NCBI GenBank assembly: GCA_021805985.1
Contig: JAJZDN010000004.1
Coordinates: 1 to 64,000 of the forward strand
From: Planctomycetota bacterium
GTDB taxonomy: Bacteria; Planctomycetota; Phycisphaerae; WQYP01
Direction: 5' to 3'
Length of the DNA stretch: 64,000 nucleotides
Program-made: the position numbers and the translations under genes
Notes under the pieces: model-generated
Database searches by the model: none
The model's input: the letters and a program-made list of their open reading frames with translations, nothing else
Told to the model about the DNA's origin: nothing
In this document: positions 26,769 to 40,022 of the stretch, in pieces
How positions within the stretch are numbered: the first letter of the stretch is position 1
Layout: each line of letters opens with the position of its first letter

Positions 26769-28010
26769 ATGACTGGGCAATCAGAAAATCAGATGACAGG
26801 CGATGCTGCGGCGATGGCCGCTGCCGAATCTGAGCTGTACGCCGTGCGGATTACCCCGGCGGGGGCGGGGGCCATTGCGGTGATCGCGGTTGTCGGGTTG
26901 GCGGCAAGGTCGTGCGTTATGCAGTTATGCAGGCGCGCGGAAAACCTGCCGGTTAAAGGCATGACCCGGGCCACGCTACGGTTTCAAGGCCGGGAAATTG
27001 ATGATGCTTTAGTGGTCTGCCGTGAGGAATATCACTTTGAAATTCATGCCCATGGTGGCATGGCGGTGGTGGAACAAATTTTGGCCGCCCTGCAAACGGC
27101 GGGGGCAACGGTGCGGGACGGGTTTGAAAACCTGCCGGCCTACCAGGCTTTGCAGAGAGATCAAACGGTATCCCCGGCTCCGGCCATTCTAAATGAAGTG
27201 CTGGCGGTCCTGCCGGGCTTGGATAATTCCTTCGCAGTGCGGCTGCTGGCCAGCCAGCATATACAGGGCTTGGGCGCATGGGCCGTGCAGAGCATCCTAC
27301 AATTCAAGAATTCCTCCCATGCTGAGGCCCTGTGGCGTGTGCAGACGCAGGCCCAGTGGATTTTGGAGAAATCCACTTTTCTTCGACACTTTATAACACC
27401 GCCGCGGATCGCCCTGATCGGCCGCCCCAATGCCGGAAAATCGACTCTGCTGAACACCCTAGCGGGGCGGCCGGCAAGTATCACCAGCGACCTTGCCGGC
27501 ACTACCCGCGATTGGGTGGACGTAATGATTCGTCTGACCGCCGGAGATGTATCGCTCAACGCCATTGTTGTGGACACCGCCGGTATGCGCACCACGGATG
27601 ATCCACTGGAGCGCGAATCCATTTTGCGTTCGCACCAGCAGACGTTACATGCTGATATTACGGTATGGGTCATCGATGGCACACAACGTGAAGAGCCTGT
27701 CCCCACAGGTCTGGATTTAAATGGTCATTCACGTGTGATTTACGCGGTCAACAAAACCGATCTGCCCGTGAATGATAAACGTTTGATCACGCCTGACCGC
27801 GATGCAGTCTGCATCAGCGCCCTAAACGGCAGCGGTGTTGAGGAACTGCATGCGGCAATTCTCAAGGCACTGGGCGTATGGAACTGCCCAATACATTCCC
27901 CGCTAGTTTGGACGCAGCGACAACGCAAACTGCTGGAAATAATCTCCGGCGCTCCAAGTGGCCCATTGGTTCTGACGCGTTTGAGTGAGCTGTGCAGAGA
28001 GTCACAATGA
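26769..28010 (+). CDS. MnmE-related GTPase lacking the C-terminal domain
   Basis: 413 residues. The N-terminal part resembles the folate-binding domain of MnmE (YAVRITPAGAGAIAVIAV), a helical linker follows, and the GTPase core has G1 GRPNAGKSTLLN, G2-like DLAGTTRD, G3 VDTAGMRTTDDPLE, G4 VNKTD and G5 SALNG. Canonical MnmE ends with a helical segment and a C-terminal Cys motif (C-x-G-K) that is needed for the wobble-uridine reaction; here the protein stops right after RQRKLLEIISG...LSELCRESQ, so that part is absent. It is therefore either a divergent paralogue with another role or a decayed copy. No mnmG is nearby. The gene ends 310 bases before the secretion-like locus. Confidence 0.75.
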   Translation: MTGQSENQMTGDAAAMAAAESELYAVRITPAGAGAIAVIAVVGLAARSCVMQLCRRAENLPVKGMTRATLRFQGREIDDALVVCREEYHFEIHAHGGMAVVEQILAALQTAGATVRDGFENLPAYQALQRDQTVSPAPAILNEVLAVLPGLDNSFAVRLLASQHIQGLGAWAVQSILQFKNSSHAEALWRVQTQAQWILEKSTFLRHFITPPRIALIGRPNAGKSTLLNTLAGRPASITSDLAGTTRDWVDVMIRLTAGDVSLNAIVVDTAGMRTTDDPLERESILRSHQQTLHADITVWVIDGTQREEPVPTGLDLNGHSRVIYAVNKTDLPVNDKRLITPDRDAVCISALNGSGVEELHAAILKALGVWNCPIHSPLVWTQRQRKLLEIISGAPSGPLVLTRLSELCRESQ

Positions 28011-28320: not shown

Positions 28321-28593
28321 ATGGCCAAAGCAAGTGTTGATCCAGCGGAGTTGCGGCGGTTCGCTCAGGGGCTGATGCAGTTTAATAATGATTTGGAGGG
28401 GCTGATGTCGGGATTAAATTCCCGCCTGCGGTCTCTGGAATCAAGCTGGCGCGATCAGGAGCAGCAGAAATTTGCTGAAACCTTTGATCAGGCGGCTCAG
28501 TTTCTGGGGCGATTCATGGAATCCTCCACCGAACACGCCAAGGTACTGATGAAAAAAGCCCAGCATATAGAAAAATATCTTAACGAGCGATAG
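28321..28593 (+). CDS. WXG100-like small protein, first of the pair
   Basis: 90 residues, all helical in appearance, built as two helices around SSWRDQEQQKFAETF. This is the ESAT-6/WXG100 plan (helix, W-x-G turn, helix), except that Asp takes the Gly place (W-R-D). Pattern and length fit the family, and two genes on is an EccC-like FtsK ATPase, the partner that secretes such proteins in type VII systems. ATG 28321 is chosen because GGAG stands 9 bases before it (28308-28311); ATG 28312 overlaps that site. It ends 8 bases before the next gene, so they are one operon. No C-terminal YxxxD/E export motif is obvious; the tail reads HIEKYLNER. Confidence 0.8.
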   Translation: MAKASVDPAELRRFAQGLMQFNNDLEGLMSGLNSRLRSLESSWRDQEQQKFAETFDQAAQFLGRFMESSTEHAKVLMKKAQHIEKYLNER

Positions 28594-28601
28594 GACAGAA
28601 T

Positions 28602-29630
28602 ATGGCCCAGAGCGCTCGCGTTGAATCTGTGGATTTGCTGACCGGCTTCCAGGCGGTGCTGTGGAAGTTTCAGGCGGCCGCCAATGCCGCCATGGAAGAT
28701 GCGGATTCTGAATTGCGTCGCACCATGCTCTGGCTGGAAATTGAACAGGAAAGCTTCTGGAAAGATCAGGCACGCAAACGCCAAACCGCCGTCGAACGGG
28801 CCAAAGAGGCGGTTCGTATGAAGAAGCTTTTTAAGGATCATTCCGGAAAGCCGCTGTCCGCGATTGAGGAACAAAAGGAATTACAACGCGCCATGGCCCG
28901 ATTGACCGAGGCTGAACAGAAATTGGCCAATGTACGGCGTTGGACACGCGCCTTACAAAAAGAAGTGGAACTCTATAAAGGTTCGGTACAGCGCCTGGCG
29001 ACAAGTGTAGAATCTCTGGTGCCGGCGGGCGTGGCGCATCTGGAAAGGCTTGTGGCGGAATTACAGGCTTACGCCGCCATTGCAAGCCCCGGCGGTGTGG
29101 GTTCGGAAAACGCGGCACCGTTTACATCTGCCCCGGCGGCGGATAGCGCGGTCATGTCGCGTGGCGGGCCGGGGCCGGAAGAGCAAATCCCGCACCGCCC
29201 GGAAAGCGAACCCTTACTTCCCAGCCCCGAAGAACGCCGCAACGCGGTGCCGCAAAACCAGTGGCCTTTCGCTGCTCCGACGTTAACCGATTCGCAGCTT
29301 AGCGCCATTGAACTCTTCGGCGGTGATGAGCCAACATTAAGCTCTCAAGCGAAGATAACTTTCGCCGAATCAAGCGATAACCAGCCCTGCCCGTTGACGC
29401 TATTTCGCACAGAGCCGCTGTCGCTGGAAGATACGGGATGGTGCCTTACGCCTTTAAGTAAGCCTCATGGCGCATGGCGGTCGATTACGGTGGCTGATAT
29501 TGCACAAGTAAATCCGGAGTGGCTGAAAATTCTCAAACTATCCGTGGGCTTTTCTGTTATATTGAATCCACAGGGAGTTGCAGAGATCAAAGACCCCCAG
29601 GGGCGGGATGTCGGGGCGCAGCGAAAGTGA
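28602..29630 (+). CDS. Coiled-coil protein of the WXG/FtsK locus, unknown
   Basis: 342 residues. The first ~140 are long charged helices (DADSELRRTMLWLEIEQE; RKRQTAVERAKEAVRMKKLF; ALQKEVELYKGSVQRLATSV), a coiled-coil pattern with several Trp. A Pro/Ala/Glu-rich linker follows (residues ~165-235), and a compact C-terminal part of ~100 residues with FRTEPLSLEDTGWCLTPL. There is no signal peptide or membrane helix. Its place between the two WXG-like genes suggests a structural or chaperone role in the same machine; this is inference from position. The last codons overlap a possible GTG start (29627) of the next gene. Confidence 0.65.
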   Translation: MAQSARVESVDLLTGFQAVLWKFQAAANAAMEDADSELRRTMLWLEIEQESFWKDQARKRQTAVERAKEAVRMKKLFKDHSGKPLSAIEEQKELQRAMARLTEAEQKLANVRRWTRALQKEVELYKGSVQRLATSVESLVPAGVAHLERLVAELQAYAAIASPGGVGSENAAPFTSAPAADSAVMSRGGPGPEEQIPHRPESEPLLPSPEERRNAVPQNQWPFAAPTLTDSQLSAIELFGGDEPTLSSQAKITFAESSDNQPCPLTLFRTEPLSLEDTGWCLTPLSKPHGAWRSITVADIAQVNPEWLKILKLSVGFSVILNPQGVAEIKDPQGRDVGAQRK

Positions 29631-29689
29631 ACGTACCAGCCGGTCGCTGCGAGGTTCAAAAATGGTGCAAGAAAAAGGCGGGCTTGTCT

Positions 29690-29902
29690 ATGGGTGTTTA
29701 TGAAGGTCGCGGGCAACTGGGCAAGGCACTGAATCACCTGCAGCTAAGCTGGGAGGAAGTGAAGTTCGGCTGGAATGATGCGGCCAGCGCCCGCTTTGAG
29801 AAAACATTTCTTGAACCATTGGGGACCGACCTGCACGCGGCCGCCAACGCCATGGAGCATATCGCCATGGTGCTTACCCAGGTGCGGCGCGATTGTCAGT
29901 AA
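29690..29902 (+). CDS. WXG100-like small protein, second of the pair
   Basis: 70 residues of two helices joined at KFGWNDAASARFEKTFLEPL; the W-N-D turn is the counterpart of W-R-D in the first small protein. ATG 29690 has AAGGCGGG about 7 bases upstream. GTG 29627, overlapping the previous stop, would add 21 mostly basic residues with two cysteines and is an alternative. It lies 24 bases before the FtsK gene. WXG100 proteins commonly act as heterodimers, so these two may pair with each other. Confidence 0.65.
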   Translation: MGVYEGRGQLGKALNHLQLSWEEVKFGWNDAASARFEKTFLEPLGTDLHAAANAMEHIAMVLTQVRRDCQ

Positions 29903-29926
29903 ATTATCGGTGAGGCATTCATAACT

Positions 29927-32900
29927 ATGACCCAGTTACACCAACAGACTGATCCACGCGTTTCGCCGTTGACCGAAAAGCATGGTGGCACGTGTCCCCG
30001 GCGTGATGCGCAAAAATCTGTGTTGCGCGACCTGCTAAGTCTGGCCGCACAATGCACAACCGATGAGGCCCAGATTGAGCGGCAATTTCGGGTCGCTAAC
30101 GAACAGGCGAAGAAAGGTCTCGACAACGCGCTGACGCAAATAGAGAGCCGATATTCTCTTGAAGTTGAAAAACTCACGGCACAACGGGAACGCACCGCCG
30201 AAAAAATCGCCGCCGATTATCAGGATCGTCTGACACAGTGTACGGAAGAATATAATCAGGCCCAGGTGGCCATCAAATGGGAAAACGCGGACGCGCAGAA
30301 AAAAGTCCGCAATCAAATAGAAGAAGCCAAATGGCTGGCTGAAGGAGAAGTGGAAACGGCACGCAATCAGATTCGTGCCGAAGATGAAGAACTAAGCAAA
30401 GTGTTCCAGGCGCACGAACAGGCACTGGTAGAAGTGGCGCAGGCCGCAGCGACGTTGATGGGGCGATGTTTTCGTCGGCCGCCAGTGGCAGCGGTAACCC
30501 CAAGCCCTGCCGCGATGGAAGGCCAGGACTTGCGGGCTGCCATGGCCGCCCATTTGGAATCCGCCCAGAAAGATTTGGCCGCCCTTCGGCGATTGTTATT
30601 GCCGCGGCTGGTTTACGGCGTTGCTCCGTGGATATTCCTCGTAGTGCTATGCGGGGCGGCGGGTGGGCTGGCTTACGGCCTGTCCGGGTCTGCCCCGGTG
30701 CAAGTTAATGTCATCGCCATCGCGGTGGGTGCAACGTTTGCTGGTGCTATTATTCTTGGGCTGGTTCTCCGTTCCTGGGCGAAGGCCAGTTTATTGGCAA
30801 TCAATCAACCCCTGAATGTCGCCATTGCGTCAGCGCGGCAAGCGGCAAAGGAACATGGGGAAATAGTGGCCCAGCGGCACGAGGCCCACTTTGCCGATAC
30901 CCGCGCTAAAGCATCGCGGGAATTGCAGGAATTAAAGCAGAAGGCCGCCGCAGCGGCACAGACCATTGAAGCCAAGCGCACCGCACGGCGGCAGGAATCT
31001 CAGCAGCAATATGACACCAGCAAAGCTGAAAGTGACGCCCAACGCGCCGCCGCAGTTCTTGCCGAACAAGAGCAGAGCGAATCTGCGAACCAGGCCATGC
31101 TGAAGCAGCATGATGCCGATATTCTAGCGGCACAACGACAATACGATGAACGTCTGGCGGATAACCGGGGGCCATATGATCAGGCCATGCTGGCGCTGAA
31201 AAACCGGTTGAAAAACGGCTTGACCCATACCCCCGAGCCATCTTCTGGCGAACATACCAATGGGAATATGTCCATAAAAGAAAACGTTGACCGGCACGGC
31301 ACGCCGTCCTGGGAAAACTGGACGCCATCAAATACATTTCCAAAGGTCATCCGCTTCGGCGAGTTTGCAGTAGATCTCAAGCAGGCGGTCGCCGCCGGAG
31401 CAAAAGGTGATGCAGTAAAGTTGGAATTCCCCGCAGTTTTTGCGGTGCCGGCAGCGCTGGAATTTCCCTTTGGTGCCTCGATGCTGGTGCGCTATGATCG
31501 GACCGGGCGGCCGGCGGCCCTGCGGATGCTGCAATCCGTGATGATCAGTATTCTCACGCAATTGCCGCCCGGCCGGGCCAGATTTACCATCATTGATCCC
31601 GTAGGCTTGGGGCAGAATTTTGCGGGGTTCATGCGGCTTGCCGATCATGATGAGGCGCTGGTGGGGGGGCGAATCTGGACGCGGCCGGAACAAATTGAAC
31701 AGCGGCTTTCAGACCTCACGGAACACATGGAAACGGTCATTCAAAAATACCTGCGCAATGAATTTTCCACCATTGATGATTACAACGCTCAGGCCGGCGA
31801 ATTGGCCGAGCCATACCGCTTTGTCGTTATTGCTGATTTTCCCACCGGGTTTGAGCGCGATACTCTGCGGCGGCTGGCCAGTATTGCCGCGACGGGCGCG
31901 CGTTGCGGCGTATATCTGCTGGCAGCGGGTGACATGCAGATGCCTGCCGGCTCGGCAACGCAGTTGGAGGATATAGCCGCGCACTGTGTCAATATTGTGC
32001 AAAAAGAGGAAGCGTTCAGTTGGAAGGATGAGGTGTTCGGCCAATTCCCGCTGGCACTCGATCGGCCGCCCACCGAGGAAGTCTTTACACCGCTTTTGGA
32101 TAAAATCGGTCAGGCCGCCAAAGCTAACCAGAATGTAGAGGTCTCCTTTGATACTATCGCGCCGGGCGATGAAGAATTCTGGTCGCTGGACAGTTCTGAC
32201 TCTCTGGCTGTCCCAATCGGCCGTATGGGTGCCACGCGGCTGCAGATGTTGCACCTTGGCCGGGCGATGGCTCAGCATGCACTGCTGGCTGGAAAAACCG
32301 GTTCCGGTAAATCCACCCTGCTGCATGCGATTGTGACGAATCTGGCGATGTGGTATTCACCGGATCAAATTGAGCTGTATCTGATCGACTTTAAAAAGGG
32401 CGTGGAATTTAAAACCTATGCGACGCATCATCTGCCCCATGCGCGGGCGATCGCGGTAGAAAGTGATCGGGAGTTTGGCTTAAGCGTATTGGAACGTCTG
32501 GATGTAGAATTAGCGCGACGTGGTGAATTATTCCGCAAGGCGGGCGTGCAGGACTTGCCTTCATATCGTCGCAGCGCTGGCGCACAAACCATGCCGCGAA
32601 CACTGCTGGTGATTGACGAATTTCAGGAATTTTTTTCCGAAGATGACAAATTAGCCCAACAAGCCGGATTGTTAATGGATCGTCTGGTGCGCCAAGGCCG
32701 GGCCTTTGGCATTCACCTGCTGCTGGGGTCACAGACTATTGGCGGTACTTCCGGATTGGCCCGCAGTACCATTGGCCAAATGGCGGTGCGCATTGCTTTG
32801 CAGGTCAGTGAGGCGGATTCGCAGATAATCCTTGGAGATAATAACTCGGCGGCACGTTTGCTTTCCCGCCCAGGTGCAGCAATTTACAATGATGCCGGCG

Positions 32901-33883
32901 GTTTGGTAGAGGCGAACAGCCCGTTCCAAGTGGCGTGGCTGCCCGATGAAAAGCGGGAAATTTATCTGGAAAAAATTAGCAGTAGCGATAAGGCCGCATC
33001 ATTCCACCAGGAGCCGCCCGTCATATTTGAGGGCAATGCTCCCGCGGATGCCCAGATGAATAAACAACTGACCGCGCTTCTGGCGGCTGGCCGGCCCACC
33101 ACTATTCCCTCGTCGGCCCATGCCTGGATTGGCGAGCCGGTGGCCATTAAAGAACCTACGGTTCTGACCCTGCGGCGGCAAAGCGGATCCAATGTACTGC
33201 TGGTTGGCCAGCAGGAGGAACAAGCGCTCTCACTGATCGTCTGGTCGTTAATTTCTCTGGCTGCGCAGTATCCTGCCGGTGGGGCAAAATTTTATATCAT
33301 GGACGGATTGGCGGCGGATTCGCGCTTGGCCGGTACATTTGAACGCGTCGCGCCCGCATTAGGCCCGGACGTGCAAATCGTGGAATGGCGTAGCATCGGA
33401 GATACGATTCACGCAGTCAATGAGGAAGTTCACCGTCGGCTGGCCGAAGAGTCGCCCAATGCTCCGGAGATATTTATTTGTATTTACGCTCTGCAACGTT
33501 ACCGCATGTTGCGAAAAAGCGAGGACGACTTTAGTTTTTCGATGTCCTCTGGCGAGGAGGCCAAGGCCCCCAACCCGGGGAAGGAATTCGGCGAGATTCT
33601 GCGTGATGGCCCGGCCGTTGGTATTCACATACTGACATGGGTGGATACGTTGGCGTCGCTGGAACGCACATTTGAACGATCCGCCCAGAGAGAATTTGAC
33701 AATCGGGTGCTCTTTCAGATGAGTGCCGCGGATTCCAGCAGTTTAATTGACTCCCCGGTCGCCAATAATCTTGGCTTCTACCGCGGTCTGTCATGCAGCG
33801 AGGAGCAGGGCGTGATGGAAAAATTCCGCCCCTATGCTCTTCCCGGACCGGCATGGATTCAAAGCCATCAACACGGGCAATAG
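29927..33883 (+). CDS. EccC/EssC-like FtsK-SpoIIIE ATPase with N-terminal coiled coil
   Basis: 1318 residues. Order: charged coiled coil (~30-180), two membrane helices (~228-278: YGVAPWIFLVVLCGAAGGL; NVIAIAVGATFAGAIILGLV), a second coiled coil (~300-430), then three FtsK-like modules. Module 1 (~470-740) has no P-loop. Module 2 has an intact Walker A GKTGSGKST (789-797) and Walker B TLLVIDEFQEF (Asp ~897). Module 3 (~1050-1310) has a degenerate P-loop, GSNVLLVGQQEEQ. Three tandem modules behind two helices is the plan of type VII motor EccC/EssC, but the FHA domains of EssC are absent and coiled coils replace them. Together with the flanking WXG-like genes it points to a secretion motor. An FtsK-type DNA role is less likely since no gamma domain is seen. 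Confidence 0.82.
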   Translation: MTQLHQQTDPRVSPLTEKHGGTCPRRDAQKSVLRDLLSLAAQCTTDEAQIERQFRVANEQAKKGLDNALTQIESRYSLEVEKLTAQRERTAEKIAADYQDRLTQCTEEYNQAQVAIKWENADAQKKVRNQIEEAKWLAEGEVETARNQIRAEDEELSKVFQAHEQALVEVAQAAATLMGRCFRRPPVAAVTPSPAAMEGQDLRAAMAAHLESAQKDLAALRRLLLPRLVYGVAPWIFLVVLCGAAGGLAYGLSGSAPVQVNVIAIAVGATFAGAIILGLVLRSWAKASLLAINQPLNVAIASARQAAKEHGEIVAQRHEAHFADTRAKASRELQELKQKAAAAAQTIEAKRTARRQESQQQYDTSKAESDAQRAAAVLAEQEQSESANQAMLKQHDADILAAQRQYDERLADNRGPYDQAMLALKNRLKNGLTHTPEPSSGEHTNGNMSIKENVDRHGTPSWENWTPSNTFPKVIRFGEFAVDLKQAVAAGAKGDAVKLEFPAVFAVPAALEFPFGASMLVRYDRTGRPAALRMLQSVMISILTQLPPGRARFTIIDPVGLGQNFAGFMRLADHDEALVGGRIWTRPEQIEQRLSDLTEHMETVIQKYLRNEFSTIDDYNAQAGELAEPYRFVVIADFPTGFERDTLRRLASIAATGARCGVYLLAAGDMQMPAGSATQLEDIAAHCVNIVQKEEAFSWKDEVFGQFPLALDRPPTEEVFTPLLDKIGQAAKANQNVEVSFDTIAPGDEEFWSLDSSDSLAVPIGRMGATRLQMLHLGRAMAQHALLAGKTGSGKSTLLHAIVTNLAMWYSPDQIELYLIDFKKGVEFKTYATHHLPHARAIAVESDREFGLSVLERLDVELARRGELFRKAGVQDLPSYRRSAGAQTMPRTLLVIDEFQEFFSEDDKLAQQAGLLMDRLVRQGRAFGIHLLLGSQTIGGTSGLARSTIGQMAVRIALQVSEADSQIILGDNNSAARLLSRPGAAIYNDAGGLVEANSPFQVAWLPDEKREIYLEKISSSDKAASFHQEPPVIFEGNAPADAQMNKQLTALLAAGRPTTIPSSAHAWIGEPVAIKEPTVLTLRRQSGSNVLLVGQQEEQALSLIVWSLISLAAQYPAGGAKFYIMDGLAADSRLAGTFERVAPALGPDVQIVEWRSIGDTIHAVNEEVHRRLAEESPNAPEIFICIYALQRYRMLRKSEDDFSFSMSSGEEAKAPNPGKEFGEILRDGPAVGIHILTWVDTLASLERTFERSAQREFDNRVLFQMSAADSSSLIDSPVANNLGFYRGLSCSEEQGVMEKFRPYALPGPAWIQSHQHGQ

Positions 33884-37343: not shown

Positions 37344-37828
37344 TGCCAAAACAACTGCATATTCGCGTAATCAAATCCCACCAAGAACTTTATGTGCTTG
37401 ATGGCAGCACGCTCATTAAAGGTTATCCCTGTATTACCGGCTCCAATACCGGCGATAAACAAATAGAAGGCGATCGCAAAACACCGGAGGGGTGTTTTCA
37501 AATTGTTTTTAAAAATCCGCATAGCAAATTTTATCTGTCGCTGGGATTGGATTATCCAAACAAAGAAGATGCGGATCGTGGTCTGGAGCAGGGATTGCTG
37601 TCGGCGGATATTTACAACCAACTGATTCATGATCTGCAACACAGTGATATGGCGAATGAAGATGTGCAAAACCGGGTGTGGAAAACCCCCTTGGGTGGCG
37701 AAATATTTATTCACGGCTGCGCCGAAGGCCGAACCGGCACCGCCGGCTGCGTCGCGCTAGCCAATCCGGACATGGCCGAACTCTATGCGTTATGTCCGCT
37801 GGGGACTGCCGTGGAAATTGTGGCGTGA
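37340..37828 (+). CDS. L,D-transpeptidase (YkuD domain)
   Basis: 162 residues. The YkuD fold starts LHIRVIKSHQELYVLDG and reaches the catalytic motif IHGCAEGRTGTAGCVAL, in which the second Cys is the nucleophile. It makes 3-3 peptidoglycan cross-links or attaches proteins to peptidoglycan. No signal peptide is visible in this start, so export is not explained by the sequence; the helices of the upstream, translationally coupled YdcF-like protein do not supply one. Start codons at 37340 and 37343 are both possible. Confidence 0.85.
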   Translation: MMPKQLHIRVIKSHQELYVLDGSTLIKGYPCITGSNTGDKQIEGDRKTPEGCFQIVFKNPHSKFYLSLGLDYPNKEDADRGLEQGLLSADIYNQLIHDLQHSDMANEDVQNRVWKTPLGGEIFIHGCAEGRTGTAGCVALANPDMAELYALCPLGTAVEIVA

Positions 37829-37950
37829 ATGGAGATGCGGCCCGATAGACCACAGCAAGCTAAACAAGGGAGCAGTAGAGCAAATAAGGCTGTGCCAGCT
37901 TATCCCAAAATGCCACATAACCCCGATGTTTGACTTACGGCAGCCAAACG

Positions 37951-37968
37951 TATATGCTTTAACATATA
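37951..37968. promoter_or_regulatory. Palindromic operator of the ars operon
   Basis: TATATG CTTTAA CATATA, a perfect 6-base inverted repeat with a 6-base spacer, whose right arm runs into the ATG of arsR. ArsR repressors bind AT-rich palindromes at such places. A looser copy, TATATC-8-CATATA, stands at 38375-38394 before arsC. Confidence 0.7.
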
Positions 37969-38339
37969 TGGTAAAGGTAAAAAAACAATCGGTTGGCAGC
38001 GGATCAGCGGATCGGATGTTTCGGGCGTTTTCGGATAGTACGCGATTACGCATTCTGCATCTGCTTTTGAATGGCGAACTGTGCGTGTGTGACATCGTCC
38101 GGGTGCTGGAAATGTCGCAGCCCAAAATATCTCGGCACTTGGCCTACCTGCGGAAGTCCGGCTTGGTGCAGGCCCGTAAAGATGGCCTGTGGATGCACTA
38201 TAAATTGGTCCTCGCGGATGATGATTTTCATCAGAGTTTAATGAATTGCCTGCGCCAGTGCTTCAAGGCGGTTCCGGAATTACAGCGCGACCAGAAACGC
38301 CTTGCCAAGGACGCCTGCGGCCCGAAATGTTGTGATTAG
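37968..38339 (+). CDS. arsR: ArsR/SmtB-family arsenic-responsive repressor
   Basis: 123 residues. Winged helix with MFRAFSDSTRLRILHLLLNG, the metal-site ELCVCDIVRVLEMSQPKIS (Cys-x-Cys in the DNA-binding helix region, as in ArsR of the E. coli type), and RKDGLWMHYKL as wing. A C-terminal Cys cluster (CGPKCCD) is an additional possible As(III) site. It derepresses the operon when arsenite binds. The operator overlaps its start codon, implying autoregulation. Followed by arsC, acr3 and arsM. Confidence 0.9.
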   Translation: MVKVKKQSVGSGSADRMFRAFSDSTRLRILHLLLNGELCVCDIVRVLEMSQPKISRHLAYLRKSGLVQARKDGLWMHYKLVLADDDFHQSLMNCLRQCFKAVPELQRDQKRLAKDACGPKCCD

Positions 38340-38374
38340 CGGGTCGGACGGAAAACCGAGTTTTTTTTGGCTGG

Positions 38375-38394
38375 TATATCGGCCTAAGCATATA
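38375..38394. promoter_or_regulatory. Second, imperfect ArsR-like operator before arsC
   Basis: TATATC and CATATA arms separated by 8 bases; similar to the operator at 37951. It could give internal control of arsC-acr3-arsM. Confidence 0.4.
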
Positions 38395-38412
38395 TAAAAG
38401 GTGGATACACAG

Positions 38413-38862
38413 ATGAATCAGAAGTTGAAAATTTTATTTCTCTGTACCGGCAACTCGTGCCGCAGTCAGATGGCCGAGGGGTGGGCGAGGCATTTGAAAA
38501 GTGATGTGATTGACGCCTACTCGGCTGGGATTCAAACTCATGGCTTAAACCCCCATGCGGTGAAAGTAATGGCCGAGGCGGGCGTGGACATCAGCGGGCA
38601 AACATCCAAGAACGTCAATGATCTTGTAGACGTGCCATTTGACGCAGTGGTCACAGTCTGCGGCCACGCTAATGAAACCTGCCCGGCGTGGCTGGGAAAA
38701 AAGACACGCATTGTGCATGTCGGGTTTGATGACCCGCCTAAACTGGCCAAAACGGCGAAGAGTGAGGAAGAAGCGTTGGGCCACTATCGGCGTGTGCGCG
38801 ATGAAATCAGAGCCTTTATTGAAACGCTTCCGCAATCGCTGAATGCGGAGGTCAGGCCATGA
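38413..38862 (+). CDS. arsC: Arsenate reductase, thioredoxin-coupled (LMW-PTP type)
   Basis: 149 residues. The P-loop [16 protein letters not shown] has the nucleophilic Cys, and [14 protein letters not shown] supplies the Cys pair used in the intramolecular disulfide cascade, as in S. aureus ArsC. It reduces As(V) to As(III) for the exporter. ATG 38413 is chosen with AGGTGG about 9 bases upstream; GTG 38401 lies right on that site. The stop overlaps the acr3 start (ATGA). Confidence 0.93.
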
Positions 38863-40022
38863 ACGAGTCATTATCGCGCAAACTTAATTATCTGGATCGA
38901 TATCTTACGCTCTGGATATTTTCCGCTATGGCCATGGGGGTGGCCTTGGGATATTTCGTTCCGGCTAGCTCGAAGTTTATCAACCAGTTCCAGGTTGGCA
39001 CAACCAATATTCCCATTGCCATCGGATTAATTCTCATGATGTATCCGCCGCTGGCGAAGGTACGCTATGAGCGGTTGGGAAAGGTGTTTCGCGATTTCAA
39101 GGTGCTGAGACTTTCTCTGGCATTGAACTGGATCATCGGGCCGGCGCTGATGTTTGTTCTGGCCATTGCATTTTTGCACGGGTATCCGGAACTTATGGCC
39201 GGCCTGATTCTGGTGGGCCTGGCCCGGTGCATCGCCATGGTGATTGTATGGAATGATCTGGCCAAGGGTGATGCGGAATATGCCGCCGGACTTGTCGCAT
39301 TCAACAGCATCTTTCAGATTCTGTTTTACAGTCTCTACGCCTGGGTATTTATCACGGTGCTTCCGCCGATGCTGGGATTTAAGGGTAGCGCGGTGGCGGT
39401 GACGATTATGCAGATTGCCGAAAGTGTTGGAATTTATCTGGGTATTCCGTTTGCGGCAGGATTATTAACCAGAGTAGTATTGTTACGGGTGGCGGGGCGG
39501 CAATGGTATGAGCAGAAATTTATTCCACGCATCAGCCCGATGACCTTGATCGCGTTGCTGTTTACCATTCTGGTCATGTTCAGCCTCAAAGGGCGGCTGA
39601 TTGTCCATATTCCACTGAACGTGGTGCGCGTGGCAATTCCACTGGCCATTTATTTTGTCATCATGTTTCTGGTAAGCTTCTGGATGGGAAAAAAGAGCGG
39701 TGCGGATTATTCCAAAACCACAACCATCGCTTTAACCAGTGCCAGCAATAATTTTGAACTGGCCATTGCCGTGGCGGTGGGGGTATTTGGTATAAACTCC
39801 GGGGCTGCATTCGCTGCGGTTATTGGTCCGCTGGTGGAAGTGCCGGTCATGATTGGCCTGGTGAAGGTGGCCTTATATTTTCAACGCCGATATTTTAAGG
39901 ACGGCGTGTCGGCTGGCTCAGTCATTGACAAAATCGCAGCTTGCCCAGCGGTTATAAGCTCTGCAAATGGTTTCGTGAAAAAATTACAACAGGAGTCACA
40001 ACATGTCACAACCCATTCTTGA
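38859..40022 (+). CDS. acr3: Arsenite efflux transporter, ACR3 family
   Basis: 387 residues with ten predicted membrane helices. Family motifs include [14 protein letters not shown], the conserved cysteine in [19 protein letters not shown], and [24 protein letters not shown]. It extrudes arsenite using the proton gradient. It overlaps arsC by 4 bases at the start and arsM by 20 bases at the end, so the operon is tightly packed. Confidence 0.94.

Follow-up and report, generated by a model that had tools for sequence, protein, structure and literature searches.

Organization of the four-gene locus

The window analyzed here, a 64,000-nucleotide stretch of the genome of a Planctomycetota bacterium (assembly GCA_021805985.1, contig JAJZDN010000004.1, positions 1 to 64,000; class Phycisphaerae, WQYP01), carries four closely spaced genes that encode two small proteins of the WXG100 type, a helical-hairpin protein, and a membrane-anchored motor related to the EccC/EssC ATPases of type VII secretion systems. 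A preliminary description of the sequence had proposed that these genes form a minimal system resembling type VII secretion in a diderm bacterium. The four open reading frames (ORFs) were all present on the + strand, at 28321-28593 (gene 1), 28602-29630 (gene 2), 29690-29902 (gene 3), and 29927-33883 (gene 4, the motor), and were separated by 8, 59, and 24 bases, in agreement with the positions and the spacing of 8-60 bases originally reported. The reported gene 1 start at 28321 was also kept; it corresponds to M4 of a longer ORF, a residue that is invariant in 43 relatives. When the window was compared with close relatives, purifying selection was detected on all four genes, and the ratio of nonsynonymous to synonymous substitution rates (dN/dS) was lowest for gene 1 (0.00-0.05), followed by gene 3 (0.03-0.10), the motor (0.09-0.13), and gene 2 (0.16-0.21). 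Because these ratios are low and the gene order recurs across three phyla, the four-gene set is considered to be more than a chance arrangement. A promoter scan gave no signal above that of shuffled sequences.

The motor protein

Gene 4 encodes a protein of 1318 residues whose best match by both sequence and fold was EccC (4nh0). The protein scored 110 bits to FtsK_SpoIIIE and 130 bits to the EccCa model, the latter being below the EccCa cut-off; EccC 4nh0 ranked above the FtsK translocases in Foldseek (E 1.7e-34) and was also first in the profile search. The NCBIfam EccC/EssC models scored the motor far below their cut-offs, and it is therefore assigned to a distant branch. No FtsK gamma (winged helix) domain was matched in Pfam at E values up to 1, which, together with the fold ranking, separates the motor from the FtsK/SpoIIIE DNA translocases and places it with EccC, as had been predicted.

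The layout of the motor consists of a coiled coil, two membrane helices, a second coiled coil, and three ATPase modules. The membrane helices (residues 223-241 and 262-280; 30593-30766, + strand) were located by a hydropathy scan, and both were present in 42 of 44 motors from the Planctomycetes-Verrucomicrobia-Chlamydiae (PVC) group, with one in each of the remaining 2. In the alignment and the AlphaFold model, module A (residues about 500-720; 31424-32086) has an FtsK-like fold without a Walker A motif, and module C (residues about 1080-1310; 33164-33856) is degenerate, with VGQQEEQAL replacing Walker A. Module B (residues about 750-1005; 32174-32941) is the sole intact ATPase according to the residues invariant in 44 relatives, and contains the Walker A motif GKTGSGKS at 32291-32314 and the Walker B motif LLVIDE, which ends at 32620. 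Modules A and C were degenerate in every relative inspected, and only module B has both Walker motifs. The preliminary description was thus correct as to three FtsK-like modules and two membrane helices, but only one of the modules is intact. It was also correct in placing coiled coils rather than FHA domains (none in a Pfam search) at the N-terminus of the motor, but their value as a distinguishing feature was overrated, as the same arrangement is already known from the type III-A CoCoNuT cassette (PMC11090510). Motor genes with one or two in-frame stop codons were encountered in some relatives (G177, G292, G394, G410, G264, G418, and L007); three of these belong to a single genus (g24), in which gene 1 is unlinked, and the stops probably reflect decay or assembly error.

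The small proteins and the helical-hairpin protein

Gene 1 encodes a protein of 90 residues with the motif W-R-D, which scored 40 bits to PF06013 (cut-off 27.3). When the family profile was compared with solved structures, HP0062 (3fx7) was the first match (E 1.9e-13), followed by EsxB (6e-9) and EsxA (4e-5), and 14 columns were invariant among the 43 relatives. By its sequence, gene 1 qualifies as a genuine WXG100 protein of the HP0062/EsxB type. HP0062 of Helicobacter pylori carries the W-R-D motif too, and clusters with an FtsK-domain gene (PMC3397514).

The product of gene 3 is a W-x-D protein of 70 residues, a length that is conserved among relatives, and its residues W21, W28, and D30 were invariant in 45 relatives. 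No match was found in Pfam with gene 3 alone. The gene 3 profile matched Staphylococcus aureus EsxA weakly (E 0.009), the family profile aligned with that of the gene 1 family (hhalign E 1.8e-5), and an iterated search started from gene 3 recovered gene 1, so that the two families merged. Gene 3 is regarded with moderate confidence as a shortened relative of the WXG100 proteins, and the earlier reading of both small proteins as WXG-like holds.

Gene 2 encodes a protein of 342 residues, for which an AlphaFold model with a pLDDT of 88 was obtained. The conserved N-terminal helical hairpin (28629-29084, + strand; helices 10-76 and 88-161, with arms of 67 and 74 residues) was present in nearly all PVC loci having enough upstream DNA. 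Fold searches returned only generic coiled coils, none of which was significant, and a sequence search against the PDB returned nothing meaningful. An Imm33-like alpha/beta domain is located at the C-terminus (29226-29591; PF24719, E 3e-5 in the window, below the cut-off); PF24719 was matched in 7 of the 47 members of the gene 2 family (best relative, E 5.6e-11), and most relatives end in a short disordered tail and lack the alpha/beta domain. This places an immunity-type fold on a protein that occupies the toxin slot of the cousins described below. No nuclease domain was detected on gene 2 in the window or in the PVC relatives.

Conservation and co-inheritance

Nearly every PVC locus for which sufficient upstream sequence was available has genes 1, 2, and 3 followed by the motor. 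This arrangement spans the Planctomycetota, Verrucomicrobiota, and Lentisphaerota, which confirms the expectation that the order would be kept in relatives. One record labelled Proteobacteria grouped among the Verrucomicrobiota in the motor tree. Among 394 Planctomycetota genomes, the motor and gene 1 occurred together in 115, the motor alone in 1, gene 1 alone in 1, and neither in 277, so that each was present in 116 genomes and approximately 30% of the genomes carry the set; the Fisher's p of 1e-98 for this co-occurrence ignores relatedness. The two genes were within 6 kb of each other in 82 of the 115 pairs and unlinked in 33, some of the latter on single-contig genomes. Since three families of the window's class (f2, f4, and f5) each hold both full and empty genomes, joint loss or gain of the motor and gene 1 is likely to have happened repeatedly. 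In all nine genomes that appeared to have a solo motor, gene 1 was located elsewhere, and in the five of these that could be read (5/5) gene 1 sits with genes 2 and 3. Solo motors without the small genes, represented by loci such as L080 and L097, had been considered as a separate form and were dropped, as gene 1, accompanied by genes 2 and 3 wherever these could be read, is present elsewhere in the same genomes. A single gene 1 match was found per Planctomycetota genome. Conservation within phyla looks mainly vertical. Saturation of the motor tree that included plasmid and EccC outgroups prevented placement of the deep branches. No relative was found in the viral contigs searched.

These data bear on whether an unrelated FtsK-like ATPase could lie by chance beside helical proteins that only resemble WXG100 proteins. 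Helical proteins easily yield weak matches, and gene 3 taken alone has no Pfam match; against this, gene 1 scores above the PF06013 cut-off and matches HP0062, EsxB, and EsxA, the motor matches EccC, and the two are co-inherited almost without exception (115/1/1/277). Chance resemblance is thus extremely improbable and was rejected on these grounds.

Genome-wide survey and neighboring genes

The genome from which the window derives is 95.5% complete and contains one PF06013 match; no effector family sharing this domain was found in it. The genome-wide search for accessory components covered YukD/EsaB, EssA, EssB, EccB, and EccD; EccE, EsaA, and mycosin lay outside its scope. YukD, EssB, and EssA were not found, and the positive control in Bacillus subtilis worked; EccB and EccD also gave no match, but these are weaker negatives, as no control genome passed the cut-off. 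The absence of the tested accessory families, which the preliminary description had noted near the locus, therefore applies genome-wide.

Directly upstream of the operon, at 26769-28010, lies a gene for a diverged MnmE-like GTPase of 413 residues, with a low score far below the NCBIfam cut-off. An arsenic-type cluster at 37785-40022 comprises an ArsR regulator, a low-molecular-weight phosphatase/ArsC-like protein, and an SBF-family (ACR3-like) transporter.

Relatives outside the PVC group

Five plasmids encode motors whose homology extends over a large part or the whole of the three-module region. On a Helicobacter plasmid, a WXG protein, a protein with a helical N-terminus and a WHH nuclease, a SUKH immunity protein, a protein of 77 residues, and a motor of 823 residues are encoded; the nuclease fusion stands in the slot of gene 2, with the SUKH protein next to it. 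A Caballeronia plasmid carries genes for a WXG100 protein, a coiled-coil protein, two small proteins, and a motor within an island of VWA, CARF, PP2C, and kinase genes; the coiled-coil protein has no Pfam match, and by analogy with PMC11090510 it may be of the nuclease type. The plasmid of Rhodococcus AH-ZY2 encodes a motor, a protein of 314 residues whose N-terminus aligns with gene 2 (hhalign E 6e-6), a protein of 73 residues, and a WXG protein. The position of the gene 2 hairpin is that taken by the effector-delivery domain in plasmid relatives.

A Deinococcus plasmid encodes a relative of gene 3 (hhalign E 5e-7), a WXG protein, and a coiled-coil protein. Its motor lacks a membrane helix and is directly preceded by a gene for a small coiled-coil protein with one C-terminal membrane helix (L113:6174-6602); a similar small anchor-like protein is encoded directly 3' of the Rhodococcus R79 motor (L114:9496-10107), which lacks the membrane-helix pair. 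These two loci suggest that some lineages encode the membrane anchor on its own, and that in the PVC group it forms a fusion with the motor. Genes for Hsp70, a TPR protein, and GrpE lie upstream of the Rhodococcus R79 motor (L114:3511-6717). A DnaK homologue occurs in the H. pylori WXG100 gene cluster (PMC4978471), and a chaperone link to WXG100-motor clusters may recur.

A further family motor, with the first module duplicated, was found in a human gut sequence entered as an unverified phage (MT836827.1; L126:2037-7371). The adjoining gene encodes a fusion of a W-x-D domain like that of gene 3 with an HExxH metallopeptidase-like domain. An E1-like (ThiF-type) gene lies upstream and a recombinase gene downstream, and the sequence is probably a mobile element and not a phage.

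Comparison with known systems

The kind of module described here is already known, as the HP0062/HP0066 set and the WXG100/FtsK cassettes of the TerY-P and CoCoNuT systems are of the same type. HP0062/HP0066 of H. pylori has been termed a minimal type VII set (PMC4978471); among solved structures gene 1 is nearest to HP0062 and shares its WRD motif, and both genes stand beside an FtsK-type ATPase. The Helicobacter plasmid cousin differs in that its motor has no N-terminal membrane pair and the gene 2 slot holds the WHH nuclease and SUKH proteins. In the type III-A CoCoNuT cassette, a coiled-coil protein and an EssC-like motor accompany a pair of WXG-type proteins, of which one lacks the motif; the motor has an N-terminal coiled coil, and only its central ATPase module is active (PMC11090510). 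All of these features recur in the PVC form. Passages of that paper that cite Anantharaman 2012 report the WXG100/FtsK cassette as stand-alone in other genomes (PMC11090510). In contrast to the CoCoNuT/TerY-P cassettes, the PVC motor has two membrane helices, the coiled-coil protein has no nuclease, TerY, CARF, kinase, and McrBC neighbors are lacking, and the set is chromosomal in three phyla.

The nearest described cassettes sit in TerY-P/CoCoNuT islands (PMC11090510, PMC4978471), for which a DNA-directed role has been suggested, and the four genes might accordingly constitute a phage-defence or DNA-handling module in which the motor acts on DNA or nucleoprotein and the WXG proteins are intracellular adaptors. 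The setting of the Caballeronia plasmid module among VWA, CARF, PP2C, and kinase genes is consistent with such a role, as are PADLOC matches of the motor to SspH and HerA ATPases, although the latter span the common ATPase core only. In the PVC form, however, the motors are membrane-anchored, gene 2 carries no nuclease, inheritance within phyla looks mainly vertical, and the neighbors of the locus in the window belong to housekeeping or arsenic functions, those scanned including no nuclease, TerY, or McrBC. A DNA-handling role is considered improbable on this evidence.

With T7SSb (EssC, EsxA, and LXG/Lap proteins), the set shares a membrane-anchored FtsK-family motor and a WXG100 partner. It differs in lacking FHA domains, in having one active ATPase module, and in that EssA, EssB, and YukD are missing from the genome. 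The likeness to T7SSa/ESX (EccC and EsxA/EsxB) lies in the central module, which is nearest to EccC, and in the presence of two different WXG-type proteins; the differences are that EccB and EccD were not found (mycosin and EccE being outside the search) and that two of the three modules are degenerate. In a broad definition, a type VII system comprises an EccC/EssC ATPase and a WXG100 protein (PMC11217815), and the corresponding gene parts, a PF06013 protein and a membrane-bound EccC-like ATPase that scores below the NCBIfam cut-offs, are both present here. The 2024 classification of type VII systems is limited to Bacillota and Actinomycetota (PMC11217815), and WXG100 proteins have been noted in Lentisphaerae and Verrucomicrobiae (Sutcliffe 2011, as cited in PMC6471051). 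No paper describing the four-gene PVC system was found among the open-access papers searched; what is new is the stand-alone, chromosomal, membrane-anchored, and apparently toxin-free PVC form, together with its all-or-none inheritance.

Proposed function

The four genes are best explained, with reasonable but far from complete confidence, as a PVC-wide, membrane-anchored, stand-alone WXG100-FtsK module of the HP0062/HP0066 type that probably works like a minimal type VII system. The WXG100 and EccC matches, the conserved order, the near-perfect co-inheritance of motor and gene 1 even when unlinked, the membrane helices retained in the family, and the absence of the tested accessory proteins all support the pairing of WXG100 proteins with an EccC/EssC motor in a diderm that was originally proposed, and protein export is favored mainly because the arrangements seen in the relatives match those of exported effectors. 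In the mechanism that we infer, the motor would be held in the inner membrane through its helix pair and would oligomerize via the coiled coils. The WXG-type hairpins of genes 1 and 3, together or with the gene 2 hairpin, would form a complex recognized by the motor, in the manner of the EsxA/EsxB or Lap/LXG complexes. ATP hydrolysis in module B would drive this complex across the inner membrane, and the gene 2 product would most likely be the cargo or an adaptor.

Several points weigh against export. The extreme conservation of genes 1 and 3, together with the single copy of gene 1, suits machinery better than effectors; PVC gene 2 has no recognizable toxin domain; the assignment of gene 3 depends on weak profile scores; no outer-membrane component is known; and related motors in CoCoNuT islands lack membrane helices and stand beside nucleases, so that the family need not always secrete. 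Some of the same observations would fit a machine that descends from a secretion ancestor but no longer secretes, serving as an inner-membrane scaffold or in envelope maintenance, in which the WXG proteins regulate the motor and rarely or never exit the cytoplasm. The near-invariance of genes 1 and 3, the single copy of gene 1, the loss of activity in two of the three ATPase modules, and the lack of a same-domain effector family in the window's genome are in keeping with such a machine, but the cousins on the Helicobacter plasmid and in the gut element carry toxin-type cargo. To our knowledge, every EssC- or EccC-type motor with a WXG partner that has been tested takes part in secretion, which also weighs against a scaffold, and this alternative is judged unlikely, if somewhat less so than a role in DNA handling.

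Within the export interpretation, the lack of toxin domains, the single copy of gene 1, and the extreme conservation speak against a toxin-launching role for the PVC form. It is conceivable, though rather doubtful as yet, that the PVC group harbors a separate diderm branch of type VII secretion, in which an anchored motor with one active ATPase and a trio of helical proteins suffice for inner-membrane export and serve housekeeping and not toxin delivery. The four-part set is inherited as a unit in these diderms even when its genes are unlinked. If secretion is true, the set would show how little a type VII system needs, the neglected modules of the HP0062/HP0066 type would gain a chromosomal, toxin-free member, and gene 2 would offer the first cargo or adaptor open to testing.

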